Source: Hyphomicrobiales bacterium
GTDB lineage: Bacteria > Pseudomonadota > Alphaproteobacteria > Rhizobiales > Rhizobiaceae
DNA: 64,000 bases
Direction: 5' to 3'
Assembly: GCA_900473045.1 (NCBI GenBank)
Contig: UCKS01000012.1
Coordinates: forward strand, 1-64,000
Shown: positions 16,661-26,139 of the stretch, one piece after another
Layout: the number at the start of each line of letters is the position of its first letter
Position numbering within the stretch: the stretch's first letter is position 1
The notes under the pieces: model-generated
The model's database searches: none
What the model saw: only the letters and a program-made list of their open reading frames with translations
What the model was told of the DNA's origin: nothing
Made by a program: the position numbers and the translations under genes

Positions 16661-17095
16661 TCAGCTGCGTTCGATGTCGCGGCGCAGCACGATCGATGTC
16701 GTCAGGTCGTCGACATTCTCCATCGTCGCCACCTCGTTTCTCAGTTCGTTGAGCGCATTGATCGATCCGACCTCGACCTCGACGACGAGATCGAGCTGGC
16801 CGCTGACCGACGACACCTTGCGGACGGAGGAGAAGCCCGCGAGCCGGTCGAGCACGCCGATCGATGGTGTCTTCTTTAGCGTCAAAAGCAGGAAGGCATG
16901 CACCTGGCCTTCGTCGAGCTGGCCGATATCGGCCCGATAACCGCGAATGATCCCGGCCTTTTCCAGCCGGGTGACGCGCTCTGTCGTGGCACTTCTGGAC
17001 AGGCCGATGCGCCCGGCGAGCGACTTCATCGGGATGCGTGCTTCGCGTGACAGGATGCTCAGGATCGTGCGGTCGATCGCGTCTGTGTCCTGCAT
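16661..17095 (-). CDS. Lrp/AsnC-family transcriptional regulator
   Basis: A 144-residue feast/famine regulator: helix-turn-helix over residues 4-55 (DRTILSILSREARIPMKSLAGRIG and SATTERVTRLEKAGIIRGYRA) and a RAM ligand domain thereafter with VSSVSGQLDLVVEVEV. Such proteins respond to an amino acid and usually regulate a neighbouring transport or catabolic gene. It is divergent from the kinase-peptidase-aminotransferase fusion, 127 bases away, and probably controls it. Confidence 0.88.
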   Translation of the reverse strand: MQDTDAIDRTILSILSREARIPMKSLAGRIGLSRSATTERVTRLEKAGIIRGYRADIGQLDEGQVHAFLLLTLKKTPSIGVLDRLAGFSSVRKVSSVSGQLDLVVEVEVGSINALNELRNEVATMENVDDLTTSIVLRRDIERS

Positions 17096-17150
17096 GATTT
17101 TGCGCCTTTCCGGGAACCGACAAGATGACGGTTATTATAAACATAATGCC

Positions 17151-17198
17151 GGTGCAACCGGCATATTGCCGGGTGCAAGGTTTTGCGGCCCGTGCAAC
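17151..17198. promoter_or_regulatory. GTGCAA direct repeats in the Lrp/fusion divergent promoter
   Basis: Three copies of a CSSGTGCAAS element occur (TGCAA at 17153, 17174 and 17193), 21 and 19 bases apart, i.e. about two helical turns. The first is part of the dyad TGCCGGT-GCA-ACCGGCA (17148-17164). Regular spacing fits the multimeric binding of Lrp/AsnC proteins. Confidence 0.45.
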
Positions 17199-17222
17199 TC
17201 TGACAGCAGACGAGGACCCATC

Positions 17223-20200
17223 ATGACCGATATGCTGAAGACCACACCGGATTTTTCCATCGACGACGCCAGGCGTCTGCTGGCCGAGCACTACGGCCTC
17301 GACGGTTCGCTGTCGCCGCTTGACAGCGAACGCGACCAGAACTTCAAGGTGACGGCCAGCACCGGCGGGATCTATATCCTCAAGATCGTCAACGCCGCCG
17401 AACCGTCGGTCGAAAGCGACTTCCAGACGGCACTTCTCAGCCATGTCGGCGAACATGCGCCCGACCTGCCGGTTCCGCATATCCGCCCGACGATATCAGG
17501 CGCAAGCCTTGGCGAAACGACCAGCGCGCATGGTGTGCGCCACCTGCTGCGTCTCGTCGGCTGGGTGCCGGGCACGCCGCTGGCGCAGTCCGCCCGCAGC
17601 CCGGAGGCACTGACGTCGCTGGGCGGCCTGCTCGGCCGGTTCGATGCTGCGCTGAAAGGCTTCATGCATCCCGGCGCGCTGCGCGATCTCGACTGGAACA
17701 TCCGCAATGCCAGCCGCTCCGCTGACCGGTTGCACCATATTACCAGTGTGGACGACCGCGCACTTCTCCAGCGCTTACTCACCCGGTTCGAAACAGTGGT
17801 CGCGCCGAAACTGCCGAAACTACGCTCGGCCGTCATCCACAACGACGCCAATGACTGGAACGTGCTGGTCGCCGACGACGATCACGACCGGATCGCCGGC
17901 CTGATCGATCTCGGCGACGCGCTCTACGCGCCCGTCATCGCCGAAGTCGCCATCGCTGCCGCCTATGCCGGGCTCGACCATGCCGATCCGATCGGCGCTG
18001 CGGCTGACATCGCGCGGGGTTTCCATGCCGAGTATCCGCTGCTGGAAGAAGAGGTCGATCTTCTTTTTGACCTGATCGCCATGCGGCTCGTCATCTCCGT
18101 GACGATCTCGGCCTCGCGCCATGCCCATACCGGCGGTAATCCTTACCTCGCCATCAGCGAAAAGCCGGCCTGGACGCTGTTGCGCAAGCTCGATGCGATG
18201 AACCCGCGTTTTGCCACCGCGATCCTGCGACATGCCTGCGGTTTCGAGGCAACGCCGGGCACAAGCGCCGTCACCGCCTGGATCGATGCCAACCGGAAGA
18301 CGCTTCACCCGCTACTCGACCGCCCGGCCGCCACATATCCGGCAGCGCTGGTGCCCTATGCCGATCCGCAGCATCCGATGACCGTCAAATCGGCCGGCGA
18401 ACAGCCGGACGAGGCACAGGCGATCTGGGAGGCTTACTGCGCAGACCATGGCGTCGATCTAGGCATCGGTCCATGGGGCGAGGCACGCACGGTCTATTCC
18501 GGCGAGATGTTCGTATCGCGGCTGGTCGAAAACACCCGCCGCATCCGCCATCTCGGCCTCGACCTGTTCATGGCTGCGGGCACAAGGCTCTATACGCCGA
18601 CCGCTGCCACGGTCGTCAGTGTCGAGGTCGAGCCCGATCCGCTCGGCTACGGCTGCCTGATTGCCCTACGCCATGAACCCGAGGGCTGCCCGGCCTTTAT
18701 CAGCCTCTGGGGCCATCTTGCTCACGAAGCGCTCGGCAGGTTGAAGGCGGGCGACCGCCTGGATGCCGGTGCGCTGGTCGGCGAAATGGGCGCGCCTAAG
18801 GAAAACGGAGGCTGGGCGCCGCATCTGCATCTGCAGCTTTCCATTGATACCCGGCTTTCCGCGACGGAAATCCTCGGCGTCGGCGAGGAACGCTATCTCG
18901 ACGTCTGGGCCGAGCTTTTCCCCAATGCCAATGCGTTTGCCGGCATCGCCCCGGAATTCTACGAAAAAACCGGTCGGTCGCATGAAGAGATCGTCACGCT
19001 GCGCAATGAACTGCTGGTTCCCAACCTGTCGATTTCCTACGACAAGCCGATCAAGTTCGTGCGCGGCGATGGCGTCTGGCTGATCGACGACAGCGGCCGG
19101 GCCTATCTCGATTGCTTCAACAATGTCTGCCATATCGGCCATGCGCATCCGGCAGTCGTCGAAGCGATGGCAAGGCAGGCAGCGACGCTCAACACCAACA
19201 CCCGCTACCTGCACGACAATATCGTCGCCTATGCCGAGCGGCTGACCGCGACGCTGCCTAAGGAGCTGACCGTTGCCGGTTTCGTCAACAGCGGCTCGGA
19301 GGCCAACAGCCTGGCACTGCGGATGATGCGCGCCCATACCGGCCGCGAAAATGCCGTCGTGCTCGACTGGGCCTATCACGGCACGACCCAGGAACTGATC
19401 GACATCAGCCCGTACAAGTTCCGCCGCAAGGGCGGCAAGGAAAAGAAGCCGCATGTGCATGTGGCGCTGGTTCCCGACAGCTATCGCGCCCCTGCCGATT
19501 GGCCGGCCGAAGAGCATGGCAAGCGTTATGCCGAAAGCGTCGCCGAACTGATCGCGCAGATGCAGGTGAAGGGCGAAGGTCCGGGCTTTTTCATTGCCGA
19601 ATCGATCCCGAGCGTTGCCGGTCAGGTGTTCCTGCCGGAAGGCTATCTCAGGGAAGTTTACCGGATGATCCGCGCAGCGGGCGGTATCTGCATCGCCGAC
19701 GAGGTCCAGGTCGGCTTTGGCCGGGTGGGCAGCCATTGGTGGGCGTTCGAAGAACAGGGCGTCGTTCCCGATATCGTCACCATGGGCAAGCCGATCGGCG
19801 ACGGCCATCCGTTGGCGGCAGTCGTCACGACCCGCGAGATCGCCGACAGCTTCGACAACGGCATGGAATATTTCAACACCTTCGGCGGCAACCCGGTCTC
19901 CTGCGCCGTCGGTCTTGCCGTGCTCGATGTCATTGAGGGGCAGGACCTGCGCGGCAATGCGCGTGCAATCGGCAATTATCTGATGGCCGGTTTCCGGGCG
20001 ATGCAGGAGCGTTATGAGGTGATCGGCGACGTGCGCGGCATGGGGCTTTTCCTCGGCATCGAACTCGTCACCGACCGCAAGACCAAGGCGCCGGCGACGG
20101 ATTTCTCCCGCGCCGTATCGAACGGCGCGCGTCAGCGCGGCGTGCTGATGGGCACCGAGGGGCCGCATGACAACGTACTGAAAATGCGGCCGCCGATGAT

Positions 20201-20276
20201 CTTCTCGAAGCGGGACGCGGACCATCTGCTTTCCGTGCTTGAGGACACATTCGAGGCGGTCACGGCCCGGGGCTGA
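17223..20276 (+). CDS. Triple fusion: APH-type kinase, M23 peptidase-like domain, class-III aminotransferase/phospholyase
   Basis: A 1017-residue protein. Residues 1-340: aminoglycoside-phosphotransferase-type kinase with [10 protein letters not shown] near 206 and GLIDLGD near 227. Residues 430-560: M23-like domain with zinc-type ligands present (HLGLD at 443, WGHLAH, HLHLQ at 534). Residues 590-1017: fold-type I PLP enzyme with [16 protein letters not shown] and the PLP lysine near 856 (GKPIGDGHP). In known relatives a hydroxylysine-kinase-like enzyme and an ammoniophospholyase act in sequence, so phosphorylation then elimination on a hydroxylated amine is a reasonable inference. Controlled by the divergent Lrp-type gene; the binding protein follows. 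Confidence 0.85.
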
Positions 20277-20381: not shown

Positions 20382-21392
20382 ATGAAATCAGTCATTTTTG
20401 GACTATTGGCCGCAGCAACGCTGACTGGAACTGCGGCACAGGCGGGCACGCTGGATATTGCCCGCGAACGCGGCGCGCTGCGCTGCGGCGTCAGCCAGGG
20501 CGTGCTCGGCTTCTCGAGCCCCAACGACAAGGGCGAATGGGCCGGCTTCGACGTCGATTTCTGCCGCGCAGTCGCTGCGGCGGTGCTCGGCGATTCCAGC
20601 AAGGTGCAATATGTGCCGCTCTCCACCAAGGAGCGTTTCGCTGCCCTGCAATCGGGCGAAGTCGACCTTCTGTCGCGCCAGACCACCTGGACCCTGTCGC
20701 GCGATACCGATCTCGGCATGAGCTTCGTCGGTGCCAACTACTATGATGGCCAGGCCTTCATGATCCGCAAGGATCTGGGCGTCAAGAGCGCCAGGGAACT
20801 GTCGGGCGCTTCGGTCTGCACCGAAACCGGCACCACCACCGAACAGAACATGGCCGACTATTTCAGCGCCAACGGCATCCAGTACAACGTGATTGCCTTT
20901 GAAAAGCCCGACCAGACCGTTCAGGCCTTCGGCACCGGCCGCTGCGACGTCTACTCGACGGATGCTTCGGCGCTTTACGCCCAGCGGCTGACACTGACCG
21001 ATCCGGACAACTACATGGTTCTGCCCGAGGTCATCTCCAAGGAACCGCTCGGACCGGCCGTACGCCAGGGCGACGAGCAATGGTTCAAGATCGTTCGCTG
21101 GACCCTGTTTGCGATGATCGAGGCGGAAGAACTCGGCATCACCAGGGAAAATGCGGCGAAGACGGCCGAAGACGGCACCGTGGCACAGAAGCGCTTCCTC
21201 GGCGCAGACGGTGCGATTTCGAAGAATTTTGGTCTCGATCCGAAATGGGCTTTCCAGGCCATTTCCGCCGTCGGCAACTATGGCGAAGTCTTTGAGCGCC
21301 ATCTCGGCAAGGACAGCCCGTTGAAGATCGAACGCGGGCTGAACAACCTCTGGAACAACGGCGGCCTCGTCTACGCACCGCCGCTTCGCTGA
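20382..21392 (+). CDS. Amino-acid ABC transporter substrate-binding protein (AapJ-like)
   Basis: A 336-residue periplasmic binding protein with a signal peptide (cleavage near TAAQA-GTLD, residue 21). SBP_bac_3 features: LRCGVSQGVLGFS, GEWAGFDVDFCRAVAAAVLGD, FAALQSGEVDLLSRQTTWT, TGTTTEQNMADYF. The closest family known to me is the general amino acid binding protein AapJ/BztA. GGAGGAGAA precedes the ATG. No permease or ATPase is adjacent, so it must use a partner elsewhere or act as a sensor; its link to the upstream fusion enzyme suggests it brings in that enzyme's substrate. Confidence 0.88.
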   Translation: MKSVIFGLLAAATLTGTAAQAGTLDIARERGALRCGVSQGVLGFSSPNDKGEWAGFDVDFCRAVAAAVLGDSSKVQYVPLSTKERFAALQSGEVDLLSRQTTWTLSRDTDLGMSFVGANYYDGQAFMIRKDLGVKSARELSGASVCTETGTTTEQNMADYFSANGIQYNVIAFEKPDQTVQAFGTGRCDVYSTDASALYAQRLTLTDPDNYMVLPEVISKEPLGPAVRQGDEQWFKIVRWTLFAMIEAEELGITRENAAKTAEDGTVAQKRFLGADGAISKNFGLDPKWAFQAISAVGNYGEVFERHLGKDSPLKIERGLNNLWNNGGLVYAPPLR

Positions 21393-21414
21393 TCGAAACG
21401 CATAAACAGCTCAA

Positions 21415-21449
21415 GCCGTCGCGAGGCCATGCTTCGCGGCGGTTTTTTT
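21415..21449 (+). terminator. Rho-independent terminator after the binding-protein gene
   Basis: A GC stem (GCCGTCGCGA with TTCGCGGCGG) followed by seven T residues at 21443-21449, 23 bases past the stop codon. Confidence 0.8.
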
Positions 21450-21488
21450 ATGTCTGCACGGAAGACGACGTTAAAGGGTCCCAGAATC

Positions 21489-21646
21489 GAAAAAGCCTGC
21501 CGCGGGAGGAGGTGCGGCAGGCTTTCGAATAGAACCGAACGGCAACTGGGAGGAGGAGTGTTGCCATTCCGCAAGTGCCCTCTGGGAGGAGGAGTGAGGC
21601 CACTTACATATCGAAGCTCTGCGGGAGGAGGTGCATCACTTCGATG
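21489..21646 (-). ncRNA. Cuckoo/alpha-r14-like small RNA with four CCUCCUCCC hairpin loops
   Basis: Four consecutive hairpins (21610-21645, 21573-21605, 21537-21569, 21492-21525) each present CCTCCTCCC in the loop on the minus strand (motif starts on the plus strand at 21623, 21584, 21548 and 21504). The last has a perfect 12-base stem followed by TTTTT, a rho-independent end, which fixes the strand. CCUCCUCCC loops are the mark of cuckoo RNAs (CcsR in Rhodobacter) and of the rhizobial alpha-r14 family; they resemble the ribosomal anti-Shine-Dalgarno sequence. The 5' end and promoter are uncertain. Confidence 0.85.
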
Positions 21647-21783
21647 ACTTCAATATACATTGATTCAGCTTAAATCGTAGGCAGAATTTTGCAGAGCAGC
21701 CATGCGCCATGCGCGTAGCAGATAGCTCGTCCTGCCATAAACCGTTTTAATACGAAAGTCTTATGCCCGATCTGCATTGCAGC

Positions 21784-21812
21784 GTGACGGCACCTTTGGC
21801 GGGTGCCGTCAC
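21784..21812 (-). terminator. Hairpin downstream of the RND pump gene
   Basis: GTGACGGCACC (21784-21794) pairs perfectly with GGTGCCGTCAC (21802-21812) just after the pump stop codon. There is no T run on either side, so it may act as a weak terminator or a 3' stabiliser. The remaining bases to the small RNA (21647-21783) show no gene. Confidence 0.5.
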
Positions 21813-21824
21813 AGACCGCGCGGA

Positions 21825-24800
21825 TTACTCCGCGGCGATCGCGGCGGGATAATGGACAGCCCCCTGCGCCTCATCGCTTGGGGCCTGCGGCTCTTCAACC
21901 TTGTGCTTCGGCTCCTTGCCAAAGAACAGCGCATAACCGGCCGGAAGCACGAGAATGGTCAGCACGGTGGCCACCAGGATACCGCCCATCATCGCATAGG
22001 CGAGCGGACCCCAGAAGACGCCGCGCGAGATCGGAATCAGTGCCAGGACCGCCGTCATCGCCGTCAGCACGATCGGCCGGAAACGGCGGACGGCCGAGCC
22101 GACGATCGCCTCTGTCCGCTCCATGCCGGCCGCGATGTCCTGGTCGATCTGGTCGACGAGGATGATCGAGTTGCGCATGATGATGCCGAGCAGCGCGATG
22201 ACGCCAAGGATAGCGACGAAGCCGAACGGCGCACCGCTGATCAACAGGGCTGCAGCAGCACCGATGATGCCGAGCGGCCCGGTTGCCAGAACCAGCATCG
22301 CCTTGCCGAAATGCTGCAACTGGATCATCAGCAGCACGACGATGACGGCGAGCATGACCGGTGCCTTGTCGGCGATCGATTGCTGGCTTTCGGCCGCATC
22401 CTCCGCGCCGCCCTGGATCTCGACCGCGTAACCGGGGGCAAGACTGTCGCGCAGCGGTTTCATGTCGGCATACATCTTCATCGCCACGTCGTTCGGCTGC
22501 ACGCCATCGGGCAGCGTGCCGCGCACCGTGATCGTCGGCAGTCGGTTGCGGCGCCATTCGACGCCCTGTTCGAGAACGGGCACGACCTTGGCCACCTGCG
22601 ACAGCGGCACATAGCTGCCGAAATCGGTCGGGACATAGATCGAATGTACGGCCGACAGCAGGTGACGGTTGGCGTCCGGCTCGCGGGCAACGATAGCAAC
22701 CGTTTCCTCGCCATCGCGGAAATCGTCGAGCGGCGCACCACTCATCGTCGCCTGCAGCATCTGGCGGATGCGTTGCGACGAGACCCCGAGCGCGCGGGCA
22801 CGATCCTGGTCGATCACAAGCTTCATCGCCGGTACCGGCTCAAGCCAATCATCGTGGATGGCGCCAAGCTCCGGATTCTCGGCGAACTTCGCCTTCACCT
22901 GATCGGCGATGCGGCGGACTTCGGCGCGGTCCTGCCCGGTGACGCGCATCTGCACCGGCCAGCCGGTCGGCGGACCGAGGAACAGGCGGTCGACCTTGCC
23001 CCTGATCGACGGGAAGTCCTCGGCAAGAATGGTCCGCAGCTTGACGATCAGCCGTTCGCGGGCCGGTTCATCATTGGCCATGACGAGGAGCTGGGCGAAA
23101 TTCGGATTGCGCAGCTGCTGGTCTAGCGGCAGGAAGAAGCGCGGTGCGCCCTCGCCGATATAGGTGGCGATGAACTTCTTGTCCTTGTCGTCGAGTATCT
23201 TCGCTTCCAGCGCCTTGGCCTGGGTCTCGACTTCCTTGATGCTGGTGCCTTCCGGCAGCCAGAGATCGACGAGGATTTCAGGCCGCGACGACTGCGGGAA
23301 GAAGTTCTTCGGGATGAACTGGAATGCCCAGAGGCTGGTAACGAAAGTCAGGAGCGTCAGCGACAGCACGATGACGCGGTGGCGCACCGCCCAGCCGACG
23401 GTGGTGCGCAGGCGGCGGTAGAATCGTGTGTCGAAGACGTCGTGATGGCTTCCGGCATGGGCGCGCTGCTTCAGGATCATGTAGCCGAGCCAGGGCGTGA
23501 AATAGACCGCCACGAACCAGGAAACGACCAGCGCGATGCCGACGACATAGAACAGCGAGCGCACATACTCACCGGCGGTCGAGGCCGCAAAGCCGACCGG
23601 GATGAAGCCGGCCGTGGTGATCAACGTGCCGGTCAGCATCGGGAATGCCGTCGAGGAATAGGCGAAGCTGGCGGCATCGAGCTTGTCCAGCCCTTCCTCC
23701 AGTTTGCGCTCCATCAATTCGACGACGATCATGGCGTCGTCGACCAGAAGCCCGAGCGCGATAATCAGCGCGCCCAGCGAAATGCGCTGCAGGTCGATGC
23801 CGAGTTCATACATGATGGCGAAGGTGGCGGCCAGCACCAGCGGGATGGCAATGGCGATGACCAGGCCCGAGCGCCAGCCGATCGACACGAAGGAAACAAT
23901 CAGCACGATCACCAGCGCTTCGCCGAGCGCCTTCATGAATTCGCCGACGGCCTCGGTGACCACTTCCGGCTGATCGGCGATCTGGGCGACGGTGACGCCA
24001 TAGGGCAATGCGGATTCGAAACGCTGGTAGGTTGCCTCGATCGCGGCGCCGACATCGGTGACCTTGTAGCCCTTGGCCATGACCACGCCGATCTGCACGC
24101 TGTCCTCACCATTGAAGCGGTACTTGTGCTGATAGGGGTCTTCAAGGCCGGAAGAGACAGTGGCGATATCGCCAAGACGCGTCACTTCGTTGCCGGAGCG
24201 CAGCCGCAGTTCTCGGATATCGGCCTCACTGGTCAGCCCGCCTTCGACGGATACGCGCACGGAACGGGTGCCGGTATCGACCGAGCCGGCCGGATCGACA
24301 TTGTTCTGTCCCTTGATGGCATTCTGCACGTCGGCAAGCGTCAGGCCGCGCGACGCCAATACGGCGGAGGAAATGTCGATATAGATCTTTTCCGGCTGGT
24401 CGCCGATGATCACGGCTTTTTCGACGCCCGGCGTCGTCAGCAGCATGTCGCGGGCCTGGATGGCGAATGTCTTCAGTTCCGGATAGCTGTAGCCCTCGCC
24501 GCTCAGCGAATGCAGGGTAACGAACGTGTCGCCGAATTCGTCGTTGAAATAGGGGCCGAGCAGGCCCTGCGGCAGCTCATTGGCGATATCGCCGACCTTC
24601 TTGCGCACCTGATAGAAGGCGTCGGCCACCTGCGCCGCATTGGTATCGCCCTTGACCTGCAGCGTGATGATAGCGCTGCCGGCGCGGGTATAGGAGCGGA
24701 CGAAATCGAGATGCGGTGTTTCCTGCAGCTTACGCTCGATCTTGTTGACGACCTGATCTTGCATGTCCTGGATCGACGCCCCCGGCCAGACCGCCTGCAC

Positions 24801-24968
24801 GACCATGACGCGGAAGGTGAAATCGGGATCTTCCTTCTGGCCCATGCGCATCAGGCCGAGCACGCCGGTAATCAGGATCAGGCCGAACAGGAAGCGCGCG
24901 ATGCTCGGATGCCCGATGGCCCAGCGCGACAGGTTGAAGGATTGCTTTTGGTCGGTGGAGGAGGTCAT
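21825..24968 (-). CDS. RND-family efflux transporter, inner-membrane pump
   Basis: A 1047-residue AcrB/MexB-type proton-driven pump of the HAE-like group. Visible: first membrane helix after FLFGLILITGVLGLM, the periplasmic PN1/PN2 subdomains, the transmembrane block ALGEALVIVLIVSFVSIGWRSGLVIAIAIPLVLA, the LGLLVDDAMIVVELMERKL helix with paired Asp of the proton relay, and a second repeat from about residue 520. It is preceded by its membrane-fusion partner 31 bases upstream. No outer-membrane channel gene is adjacent. Drug range unknown. Confidence 0.93.
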   Translation of the reverse strand: MTSSTDQKQSFNLSRWAIGHPSIARFLFGLILITGVLGLMRMGQKEDPDFTFRVMVVQAVWPGASIQDMQDQVVNKIERKLQETPHLDFVRSYTRAGSAIITLQVKGDTNAAQVADAFYQVRKKVGDIANELPQGLLGPYFNDEFGDTFVTLHSLSGEGYSYPELKTFAIQARDMLLTTPGVEKAVIIGDQPEKIYIDISSAVLASRGLTLADVQNAIKGQNNVDPAGSVDTGTRSVRVSVEGGLTSEADIRELRLRSGNEVTRLGDIATVSSGLEDPYQHKYRFNGEDSVQIGVVMAKGYKVTDVGAAIEATYQRFESALPYGVTVAQIADQPEVVTEAVGEFMKALGEALVIVLIVSFVSIGWRSGLVIAIAIPLVLAATFAIMYELGIDLQRISLGALIIALGLLVDDAMIVVELMERKLEEGLDKLDAASFAYSSTAFPMLTGTLITTAGFIPVGFAASTAGEYVRSLFYVVGIALVVSWFVAVYFTPWLGYMILKQRAHAGSHHDVFDTRFYRRLRTTVGWAVRHRVIVLSLTLLTFVTSLWAFQFIPKNFFPQSSRPEILVDLWLPEGTSIKEVETQAKALEAKILDDKDKKFIATYIGEGAPRFFLPLDQQLRNPNFAQLLVMANDEPARERLIVKLRTILAEDFPSIRGKVDRLFLGPPTGWPVQMRVTGQDRAEVRRIADQVKAKFAENPELGAIHDDWLEPVPAMKLVIDQDRARALGVSSQRIRQMLQATMSGAPLDDFRDGEETVAIVAREPDANRHLLSAVHSIYVPTDFGSYVPLSQVAKVVPVLEQGVEWRRNRLPTITVRGTLPDGVQPNDVAMKMYADMKPLRDSLAPGYAVEIQGGAEDAAESQQSIADKAPVMLAVIVVLLMIQLQHFGKAMLVLATGPLGIIGAAAALLISGAPFGFVAILGVIALLGIIMRNSIILVDQIDQDIAAGMERTEAIVGSAVRRFRPIVLTAMTAVLALIPISRGVFWGPLAYAMMGGILVATVLTILVLPAGYALFFGKEPKHKVEEPQAPSDEAQGAVHYPAAIAAE

Positions 24969-24999
24969 CGGCGTTATTCCGCTTTCGATGGATCTGGGG

Positions 25000-26139
25000 T
25001 CATCGCACGCGCTTTGTATTTTCGGCGGCGGCGGATTGCTGTGCGGCGTCACCGCCGAGCTTCACCTTCATGCCCTCGGTCATGAACTGCGTCCCGGCGG
25101 TCACCACGACATCCCCAGGCTTCAATCCTTCGGCGATCCGCACGCCGTCATTGGTGAAGTCGGCGACCGTGACAGGGCGGGAATGCACGGTCTCGGCGCT
25201 GCGATCGACGGTCCAGACGATCGGCTGGTCGTCCTTCTTGGCAAGCGCGCTCAAGGGGATGGAGACCAGTTGCTGGGTATCGGCAGCAGCGGCGAGAATG
25301 CCGGCGGTCATGCCGAGAAGCACATTCGGATCATTCGGCAGGCTGATGCGGACGGCGAATGTACGCGACTGCGGCTCGGCGCTACCGGCGACTTCCCGCA
25401 CCTTGCCCTGCAGCATCAAGGCGGCATCCGACCAGAACCCGACGGTGACCACCTTGCCGGGCTTGAATTGGGCAATATCCGTTTCGGGAATGGCGACAAG
25501 CACTTCTTTTTCGCCATCGACGGCGACGCTGACAACCGGCGTTCCCGAGCCGACGACCTGGCCGATATCGGCGTTGATCGCGGTGACGATGCCGTTCTGG
25601 TCGGACTTCAGATTGGTATAGCTGACCTGGTTCTTCGCCTGATCGAGCGCCGATCGCGCCGAGTCACGCGTGGCAACGGCCTGATTGTAGCCGAGCGTTG
25701 CCTGTTCGAGCTGCGATTTCGGCGAAACGTTCTTGGCAAACAGCTGTTCGGCACGGATGCGTGCCAGTTCCGTCGTTTCGACCTGCCGCTCAGTGGCATC
25801 GAGGCTTGCCTTGGCGCTGGTCAATGCGAGTTCGTAGTCGGACGGATCAATCCGGGCGAGCAGATCGCCGGATTTGACGCGCTGGCCGATATCGACGAGG
25901 CGTTCGGTGATCTTGCCGTTGACGCGGAAACCGAGATTCATCTCGGTACGGGCGCGGACCGTGCCGGAATAGCTGAGCGTGCGCGACGTATCGATGGCGG
26001 CAATCTCGACCACATTTACCGGCCGCACGATTGCCTTGGTCTCGGCCTTTTCTTCAGAGCAGCCGGAGAGAGCCAAAACAGCGGCAGACAGGATGGAAAC
26101 GGCGGACAAACGAATATAGTTATGGCTTGGCGAAAGCAT
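25000..26139 (-). CDS. RND efflux membrane-fusion (periplasmic adaptor) lipoprotein
   Basis: A 379-residue adaptor. It has a lipoprotein signal with lipobox LSGC near residue 26, a biotinyl-lipoyl half (LGFRVNGKITERLVDIGQRVKSGDLLARID), a coiled-coil hairpin of about residues 90-160, and beta-barrel and membrane-proximal parts. AGGAG lies 7 bases before the ATG at 26139. It is the first gene of the two-gene pump operon; the tetR gene ends 55 bases upstream on the same strand, so read-through is possible. Confidence 0.92.
   Translation of the reverse strand: MLSPSHNYIRLSAVSILSAAVLALSGCSEEKAETKAIVRPVNVVEIAAIDTSRTLSYSGTVRARTEMNLGFRVNGKITERLVDIGQRVKSGDLLARIDPSDYELALTSAKASLDATERQVETTELARIRAEQLFAKNVSPKSQLEQATLGYNQAVATRDSARSALDQAKNQVSYTNLKSDQNGIVTAINADIGQVVGSGTPVVSVAVDGEKEVLVAIPETDIAQFKPGKVVTVGFWSDAALMLQGKVREVAGSAEPQSRTFAVRISLPNDPNVLLGMTAGILAAAADTQQLVSIPLSALAKKDDQPIVWTVDRSAETVHSRPVTVADFTNDGVRIAEGLKPGDVVVTAGTQFMTEGMKVKLGGDAAQQSAAAENTKRVR

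Follow-up and report, generated by a model that had tools for sequence, protein, structure and literature searches.

A four-hairpin small RNA array of the ar14/cuckoo type with repeated anti-Shine-Dalgarno-like loops in a Rhizobiaceae genome

Introduction

Four adjacent stems, each with the same motif in its loop, lie between the gene for a solute-binding protein and that for an efflux transporter in a Rhizobiaceae genome. The locus raises the question of whether the stems form an RNA gene of their own and what four copies of one anti-Shine-Dalgarno (anti-SD)-like loop would be good for. An earlier note on this DNA had proposed a minus-strand small RNA (sRNA) with four hairpins. Here, the array was analyzed in its window, i.e., the whole 64-kb stretch of DNA studied, and compared with its copies in the same genome and in relatives. 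It is a further member, in another genome, of the known four-hairpin ar14/cuckoo sRNAs.

Results

Anatomy of the array

The motif CCTCCTCCC occurred exactly four times in the 64-kb window, always on the minus strand and within 128 bases (start positions 21504, 21548, 21584, and 21623). The chance level in 100 dinucleotide shuffles was a mean of 0.67 copies per window, with four or more copies anywhere in 1 shuffle, and in 200 first-order Markov versions of the window not even two motif copies fell within 60 bases of each other; the clustering is not due to chance. The minus strand from 21480 to 21660 folded into four hairpins with −71.5 kcal/mol (z = −5.94), a value reached by none of 200 shuffles, and CCUCCUCCC was present in the loop of each of them, from approximately 21646 to 21490. 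When the motif was given random flanks, stems matching the stability of the four real ones arose in 13, 5, 7, and 0 of 1,000 trials. The motif count, the fold, and the shuffles bear out the four adjacent minus-strand hairpins with a common loop motif, and the coordinates first assigned to them were right to within a few bases. The loop had been described as an identical 9-base sequence; the 9-mer is indeed the core common to all four loops, but the unpaired loops are longer, with 10 nt in hairpins 1 and 4 and 13 nt in hairpins 2 and 3 (Table 1). The last stem had been called a textbook terminator. It is directly followed by the U run GCGGCAGGCUUUUUCG and looks terminator-like, but it was absent from the list of a simple terminator scan, which takes loops of 3 to 8 only.

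Table 1. Predicted sRNA, its parts, and its neighbors in the window
Feature	Position	Strand	Basis and remarks
Solute-binding protein family 3, convergent neighbor	20382..21392	+	PF00497, 60.2 bits
Predicted sRNA transcript, ~157 nt, four hairpins	21490..21646	-	Fold, Rfam ar14 match, -10-like box; both ends inferred
Hairpin 4 and U run, terminator-like, loop ACCUCCUCCC, motif 21504-21512	21490..21525	-	Sequence, fold
Hairpin 3, loop ACUCCUCCUCCCA, motif 21548-21556	21537..21569	-	Fold
Hairpin 2, loop ACUCCUCCUCCCA, motif 21584-21592	21571..21607	-	Fold
Hairpin 1, 5'-most, outside the Rfam ar14 model, loop ACCUCCUCCC, motif 21623-21631	21610..21645	-	Fold
-10-like box GTATAT	21653..21658	-	TATAT or TATAG there in 18/18 aligned upstream regions
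Conserved upstream element CGCGCATGGCGCATGGCTGCTCTGCAAAATTCTGCCTA	21678..21715	-	Aligned in 18 upstream regions; probably an activator site with the -35 region
AcrB-family efflux transporter, upstream neighbor	21825..25052	-	PF00873, 557.5 bits; start codon not settled

Among 26 genomes of the genus, 19 (own genome included) carried the array with at least 91% identity and were taken as orthologous relatives. A coding gene across the hairpins was rejected: three minus-strand open reading frames (ORFs) cross them, with start and length kept in 2, 3, and 1 of the 19 relatives (window included), and because of this poor preservation the array is read as non-coding.

Family assignment

The ar14 covariance model of Rfam (RF02344) matched with 103.6 bits, compared to a cut-off of 58.8, over positions 1 to 123 of 123 and window positions 21611 to 21488 of the minus strand, which confirmed the proposed alpha-r14 assignment. 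Hairpins 2, 3, and 4 fill the model, each with CCUCCUCCC in its loop, and hairpin 1 is added on the 5' side. The second family name put forward, cuckoo (CcsR), applies in its wide sense, which is described as comprising two to four hairpins with a common loop motif (PMC3927594, PMC4504443); adjacent hairpins, a common loop motif, variable stems, and several copies per genome, by which wide-sense cuckoo RNAs and RFMSmelA099 are recognized, were all found. Membership of CcsR1 proper was rejected, with 28.8 bits for the CcsR1 model (RF02791), below the Rfam gathering cut-off of 65.3. Matches to ar7 (23.1 of 60 bits) and mraW were also far under the cut-off, and the Rfam search listed no alpha-r15 or suhB match for the array stretch.

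The four-hairpin form has already been published as RFMSmelA099 (Reinkensmeier et al. 2011, PMC3927594), a type described there as having several members per genome, with members in Rhizobium leguminosarum and R. etli, and with A. tumefaciens L5 verified by sequencing and Northern blotting. Its founder, SmelA099 (smrA6) of S. meliloti, is given as 160 nt long (PMC2873474), compared to ~157 nt predicted for the window array, and both have four hairpins with CCUCCUCCC in each loop; no anatomical difference was found in this comparison with the published description. SmelA099 is listed with the nodule zones ZII, IZ, and ZIII (PMC7143759), and the three-hairpin SmelA075 is reported to occur also in shorter versions, from which one or two stem-loops would be missing (PMC2873474). 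The window array is well built but ordinary, the four-hairpin form having been known since 2011, and it opens no new class.

Conservation and covariation

All four motifs, that of hairpin 1 included, were exact in 19 of 19 relatives. Mean column identity among them was 1.00 in the loops and 0.957 in the stems, in agreement with the selection on the loop that had been postulated. The fourth (5') hairpin outside the ar14 model is kept in all 19 of these closest relatives.

Base pairing was assessed in 18 distinct relatives and in a broader alignment of 49 arrays (A2), which combined 38 paralog arrays having exactly four motif hits with 11 of the 19 close relatives. Six of the 36 loci from L082 to L117 (L095, L105, L107, L108, L109, and L112) did not have four hits and were left out of A2, as was L045; L048, with three hits, and L118 to L121 were outside its list. 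The near-perfect conservation of the loops in A2 is partly a product of this choice, because its rows were taken for their four hits, which is not so in the 19 relatives. A further alignment, A3, was made without L033, the array row of which is identical to L032 in alignment A1.

Paired cells amounted to 99.7% in the 18 distinct relatives and 93.9% in the 49 arrays, compared to 34 to 47% and 32 to 52%, respectively, in the control with slid partners. Two-sided changes that still paired were seen in 10 cells and 113 cells, so the stems do covary in relatives, as had been expected. Such changes affected 3 of 11 pairs of hairpin 2 in the 18 distinct relatives and 10 of 11 in the 49 arrays, and 2 of 10 and 6 of 10 pairs, respectively, of hairpin 3. 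In hairpins 1 and 4, the stems of which hardly vary, there were none in the close relatives. Hairpin 4 remained paired in 99.3% of cells across the 49 arrays. Hairpin 1 was paired in 99.5% of cells in the 19 close relatives and in 90.7% in the 49 arrays, where its outermost A-U pair was lost in 34 of 49 and the pair next to it in 6 of 37. Hairpin 1 is supported mainly by conservation and not by covariation, because its stem hardly varies and a single pair with two-sided changes occurred in the 49 arrays. Invariant loops go together with covarying stems in the two middle hairpins and with outer stems that are conserved in their own right; the idea that stems differ while loops stay identical held for the two middle hairpins, whereas the outer two hardly vary even across paralogs.

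Copies and changes in hairpin number

The proposed comparison of copy number revealed seven arrays above the Rfam cut-off in the own genome, namely, four with four hairpins (on C60, C67, which is the window array, C70, and C111) and three with three hairpins (two in tandem on C46 and one on C121). In the C121 copy (L007), the first loop was altered (CCTCCTTCC) and the last one contained two N; its contig is 4,461 bases long, and an assembly join or a masked stretch is possible. At least one pair of exact motifs 20 to 50 bases apart was present in all 26 genus genomes, compared to zero for the control pattern in all 26. Family-wide, ar14 matched in 97 of 101 genomes, above the cut-off in 91 of 101, and in none of 14 control genomes.

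The four-hairpin signature was found in at least 119 stretches of named genomes, with 118 distinct arrays among the matches listed. The best 80 of these at least 119 stretches belong to Rhizobiaceae genera or carry the labels Rhizobiales or Rhizobiaceae, three doubtful genera having been checked in the taxonomy. Among the matches listed, 113 of the 118 distinct arrays had four loops with stems, 3 had three, and 1 had five, and a fifth hit lacking a stem in 1 further array was read as spurious. The fourth loop was preceded by CA in 109 of the 113 four-loop arrays among the matches listed; only this loop is informative in them, because the search pattern fixes the first three loop types.

Several copies differed in hairpin number or loop sequence. 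L109 (G014:C7:92600-93400), the array of which is the same as L183 from Rhizobium sp. Root1334, carried five hairpins, beyond the two to four stated for the family; 63 bases that span hairpin 3 are directly duplicated in it. In L118 (G007:C18:195200-195800), the 5' arm of hairpin 2 was joined via one intact CCTCCTCCC to the 3' arm of hairpin 3, a loop-to-loop deletion that left one loop without a stem. The third loop was decayed (CTCCTCTTGAG and similar) and the other three kept in L045, L095, L105, L107, and L108, the last with one further change each in loops 2 and 4. Strict preservation of the loop is therefore not a rule for all paralogs. In L112 (G014:C10:58600-59400), hairpin 4, the terminator, was lost after its 5' arm.

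The five-hairpin copy and the loop-to-loop deletion suggest that the identical loops could serve as recombination joints as well as seeds. Slippage or recombination would then add, remove, or swap hairpins with the seed left intact, and seed number would be an evolvable dose setting, a tentative idea that we hold to be rather doubtful. The same two rearrangements, and the several copies per genome, could also be expected of a DNA-level repeat or recombination element devoid of RNA function. Yet the stems keep their pairs through two-sided changes while the loops are unchanged in 19 of 19 relatives, which favors a function as RNA, and relatives of the array are reported to be transcribed (PMC10746234, PMC2873474); a pure DNA element is most improbable.

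Genomic neighborhood and upstream region

The array starts ~180 bases downstream of the acrB stop codon on the same strand, and a HlyD-type fusion protein is encoded beyond acrB. Adjacency to the array was seen for acrB in 14 of 19 genomes and for the solute-binding protein gene in 11; either neighbor was present in 16 (window included) and neither in L031, L035, and L036, with L027 counted as having both although its matches come in pieces. Elsewhere in the window, a plus-strand ORF of 1,109 aa (16947-20276) combined phosphotransferase (APH), peptidase M23, and class-III aminotransferase domains in one chain.

The distance, the shared strand, and the frequent adjacency to acrB would be compatible with a 3'-untranslated region (UTR) element or a read-through product of the acrB operon. 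The array is kept without acrB beside it in 5 of the 19 relatives, however, and the upstream DNA, aligned for 18 relatives, was diverged until a block at approximately 21715 to 21678, ~70 bases before hairpin 1, and ended in the -10-like box, which is the pattern of a promoter. We find the 3'-UTR reading quite improbable; a free gene that has long occupied this position fits better.

By analogy with its relatives, the free gene may be under the control of a LysR-type activator such as LsrB. At the position ~70 bases upstream where NfeR1, the alpha-r14 sRNA, has its LsrB box, all 19 relatives carried CGCA-N4-GCAT in place of TGCA-N6-GCAT, the box of NfeR1, whose transcription LsrB is reported to activate (PMC10746234). 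The strict box was missing ~60 to 72 bases before the array start in the window; one at 21763 to 21776, ~117 bases or more upstream of the start, is probably due to chance, because none of the 18 other relatives shares it. Among the arrays listed, 18 of 45 had the strict box. The NtrC box TGC-N11-GCA, another difference from NfeR1, did not occur in window positions 21647 to 21900; among the 19 upstream regions, only that of L027 had it. A scan for the sigma-70 consensus found no site upstream of the array, as might be expected if the promoter depended on an activator or if there were none. A frame of 35 aa (21670-21777), with start and length kept in 7 of 19 relatives, overlaps the conserved promoter block.

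Discussion

Proposed function of the loops

Given the hairpin anatomy shown here, the match to the ar14 model, the conserved and covarying sequence, the upstream block kept in relatives, and the paralogs, we consider it highly probable that the array is a stand-alone trans-acting sRNA of the four-hairpin ar14/cuckoo type (RFMSmelA099) with its own promoter and redundant anti-SD loops that block several mRNAs. Transcription would run leftward from the promoter, starting at ~21646, and stop near 21490 at a predicted intrinsic terminator. Every loop would present an anti-SD seed, and any single one could pair with a purine-rich ribosome-binding site, so that one molecule with four redundant seeds would block the start of translation on several mRNAs, presumably for transport and metabolism.

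The closest model is NfeR1, whose three redundant anti-SD motifs are reported to act on the start regions of ntrB and of two ABC-transporter mRNAs and so to silence them (PMC10746234). Blocking of SD sequences is the best explanation for the window array as well, because its loops are the same as those of NfeR1. AbcR1 and AbcR2 (alpha-r15) are comparable, as their anti-SD motifs in unpaired regions are described to silence transport mRNAs, with LsrB activation on the AbcR side (PMC7143759, PMC10746234); in contrast to the window array, they have three stem-loops and two CU-rich motifs. Of the six NfeR1 copies of S. meliloti, Northern blotting is reported to detect just one (PMC7143759), so the window copy could be silent.

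Our own target tests were weak or negative. The best duplex of ntrB with the four loops had −18.5 kcal/mol, which was equaled or bettered by 21 of 75 start regions in the window (ATG frames of at least 200 aa on both strands, antisense included, and not curated genes). In contrast to NfeR1, ntrB was rejected as an outstanding target for lack of special complementarity; the test, for which ntrB was located via ntrC and its start chosen by eye, is weak evidence either way, because the score allows bulges and rewards any purine-rich stretch. Pairing of NfeR1 with ntrB reportedly requires only 8 bases. Genome-wide, GGGAGGAGG-N3-11-ATG occurred in 9 places, little above the 6 of the reversed-pattern control, and these 9 include the complementary strand of the C60 array and one C58 site counted twice. 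Long frames followed directly at L122 (387 aa) and L124/L125 (157 aa).

Repeated CU-rich loops could also act as a decoy titrating an RNA-binding protein, e.g., a DUF1127 protein such as CcaF1, with the sRNA serving mainly as a sponge. A sponge would need repeated identical single-stranded motifs on variable stems, as the array has, and such a protein in Rhodobacter sphaeroides is described to work with RNase E in RNA maturation (PMC10253847). The CcsR1-4 RNAs of that species resemble the array in the common loop motif on variable stems but are described as several two-stem-loop RNAs cut from a single transcript (PMC10253847, PMC3927594), whereas the array is under the RF02791 cut-off. No DUF1127 gene was found next to the array at the locus, where the gap up to acrB holds short frames of 20 to 41 aa only and the neighbors encode PF00873 and PF00497 proteins. 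Moreover, NfeR1 is reported to lower an ntrB reporter, an effect not seen once its three motifs had all been changed (PMC10746234); this argues for base pairing. A decoy is accordingly unlikely.

Sequestering of ribosomes had been suggested on the strength of the loops, which resemble the 16S anti-SD; CACCUCCU, present in hairpins 1 and 4, corresponds to the 16S 3' tail, the 16S gene itself not having been found in the draft assembly. Base pairing speaks against the suggestion, since an RNA of the same sense as the 16S tail cannot pair with it and would pair with the SD sequences of mRNAs. SD-like loops would arise on the complementary strand; the ar14 match, the U run, and the promoter-like block, however, all belong to the minus strand. 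A separate terminator-like site, at 21413 to 21445, serves the convergent gene on the plus strand. We give very little credence to a sequestrator.

Significance for the family

The four-seed form is a gene of some age that has been retained, since in 16 of 19 genomes at least one of the window neighbors adjoins the array, and one genome keeps four such four-hairpin arrays alongside three three-hairpin ones. The locus offers a test case of why a cell keeps several near-redundant anti-SD RNAs and of whether seed number sets regulatory strength.
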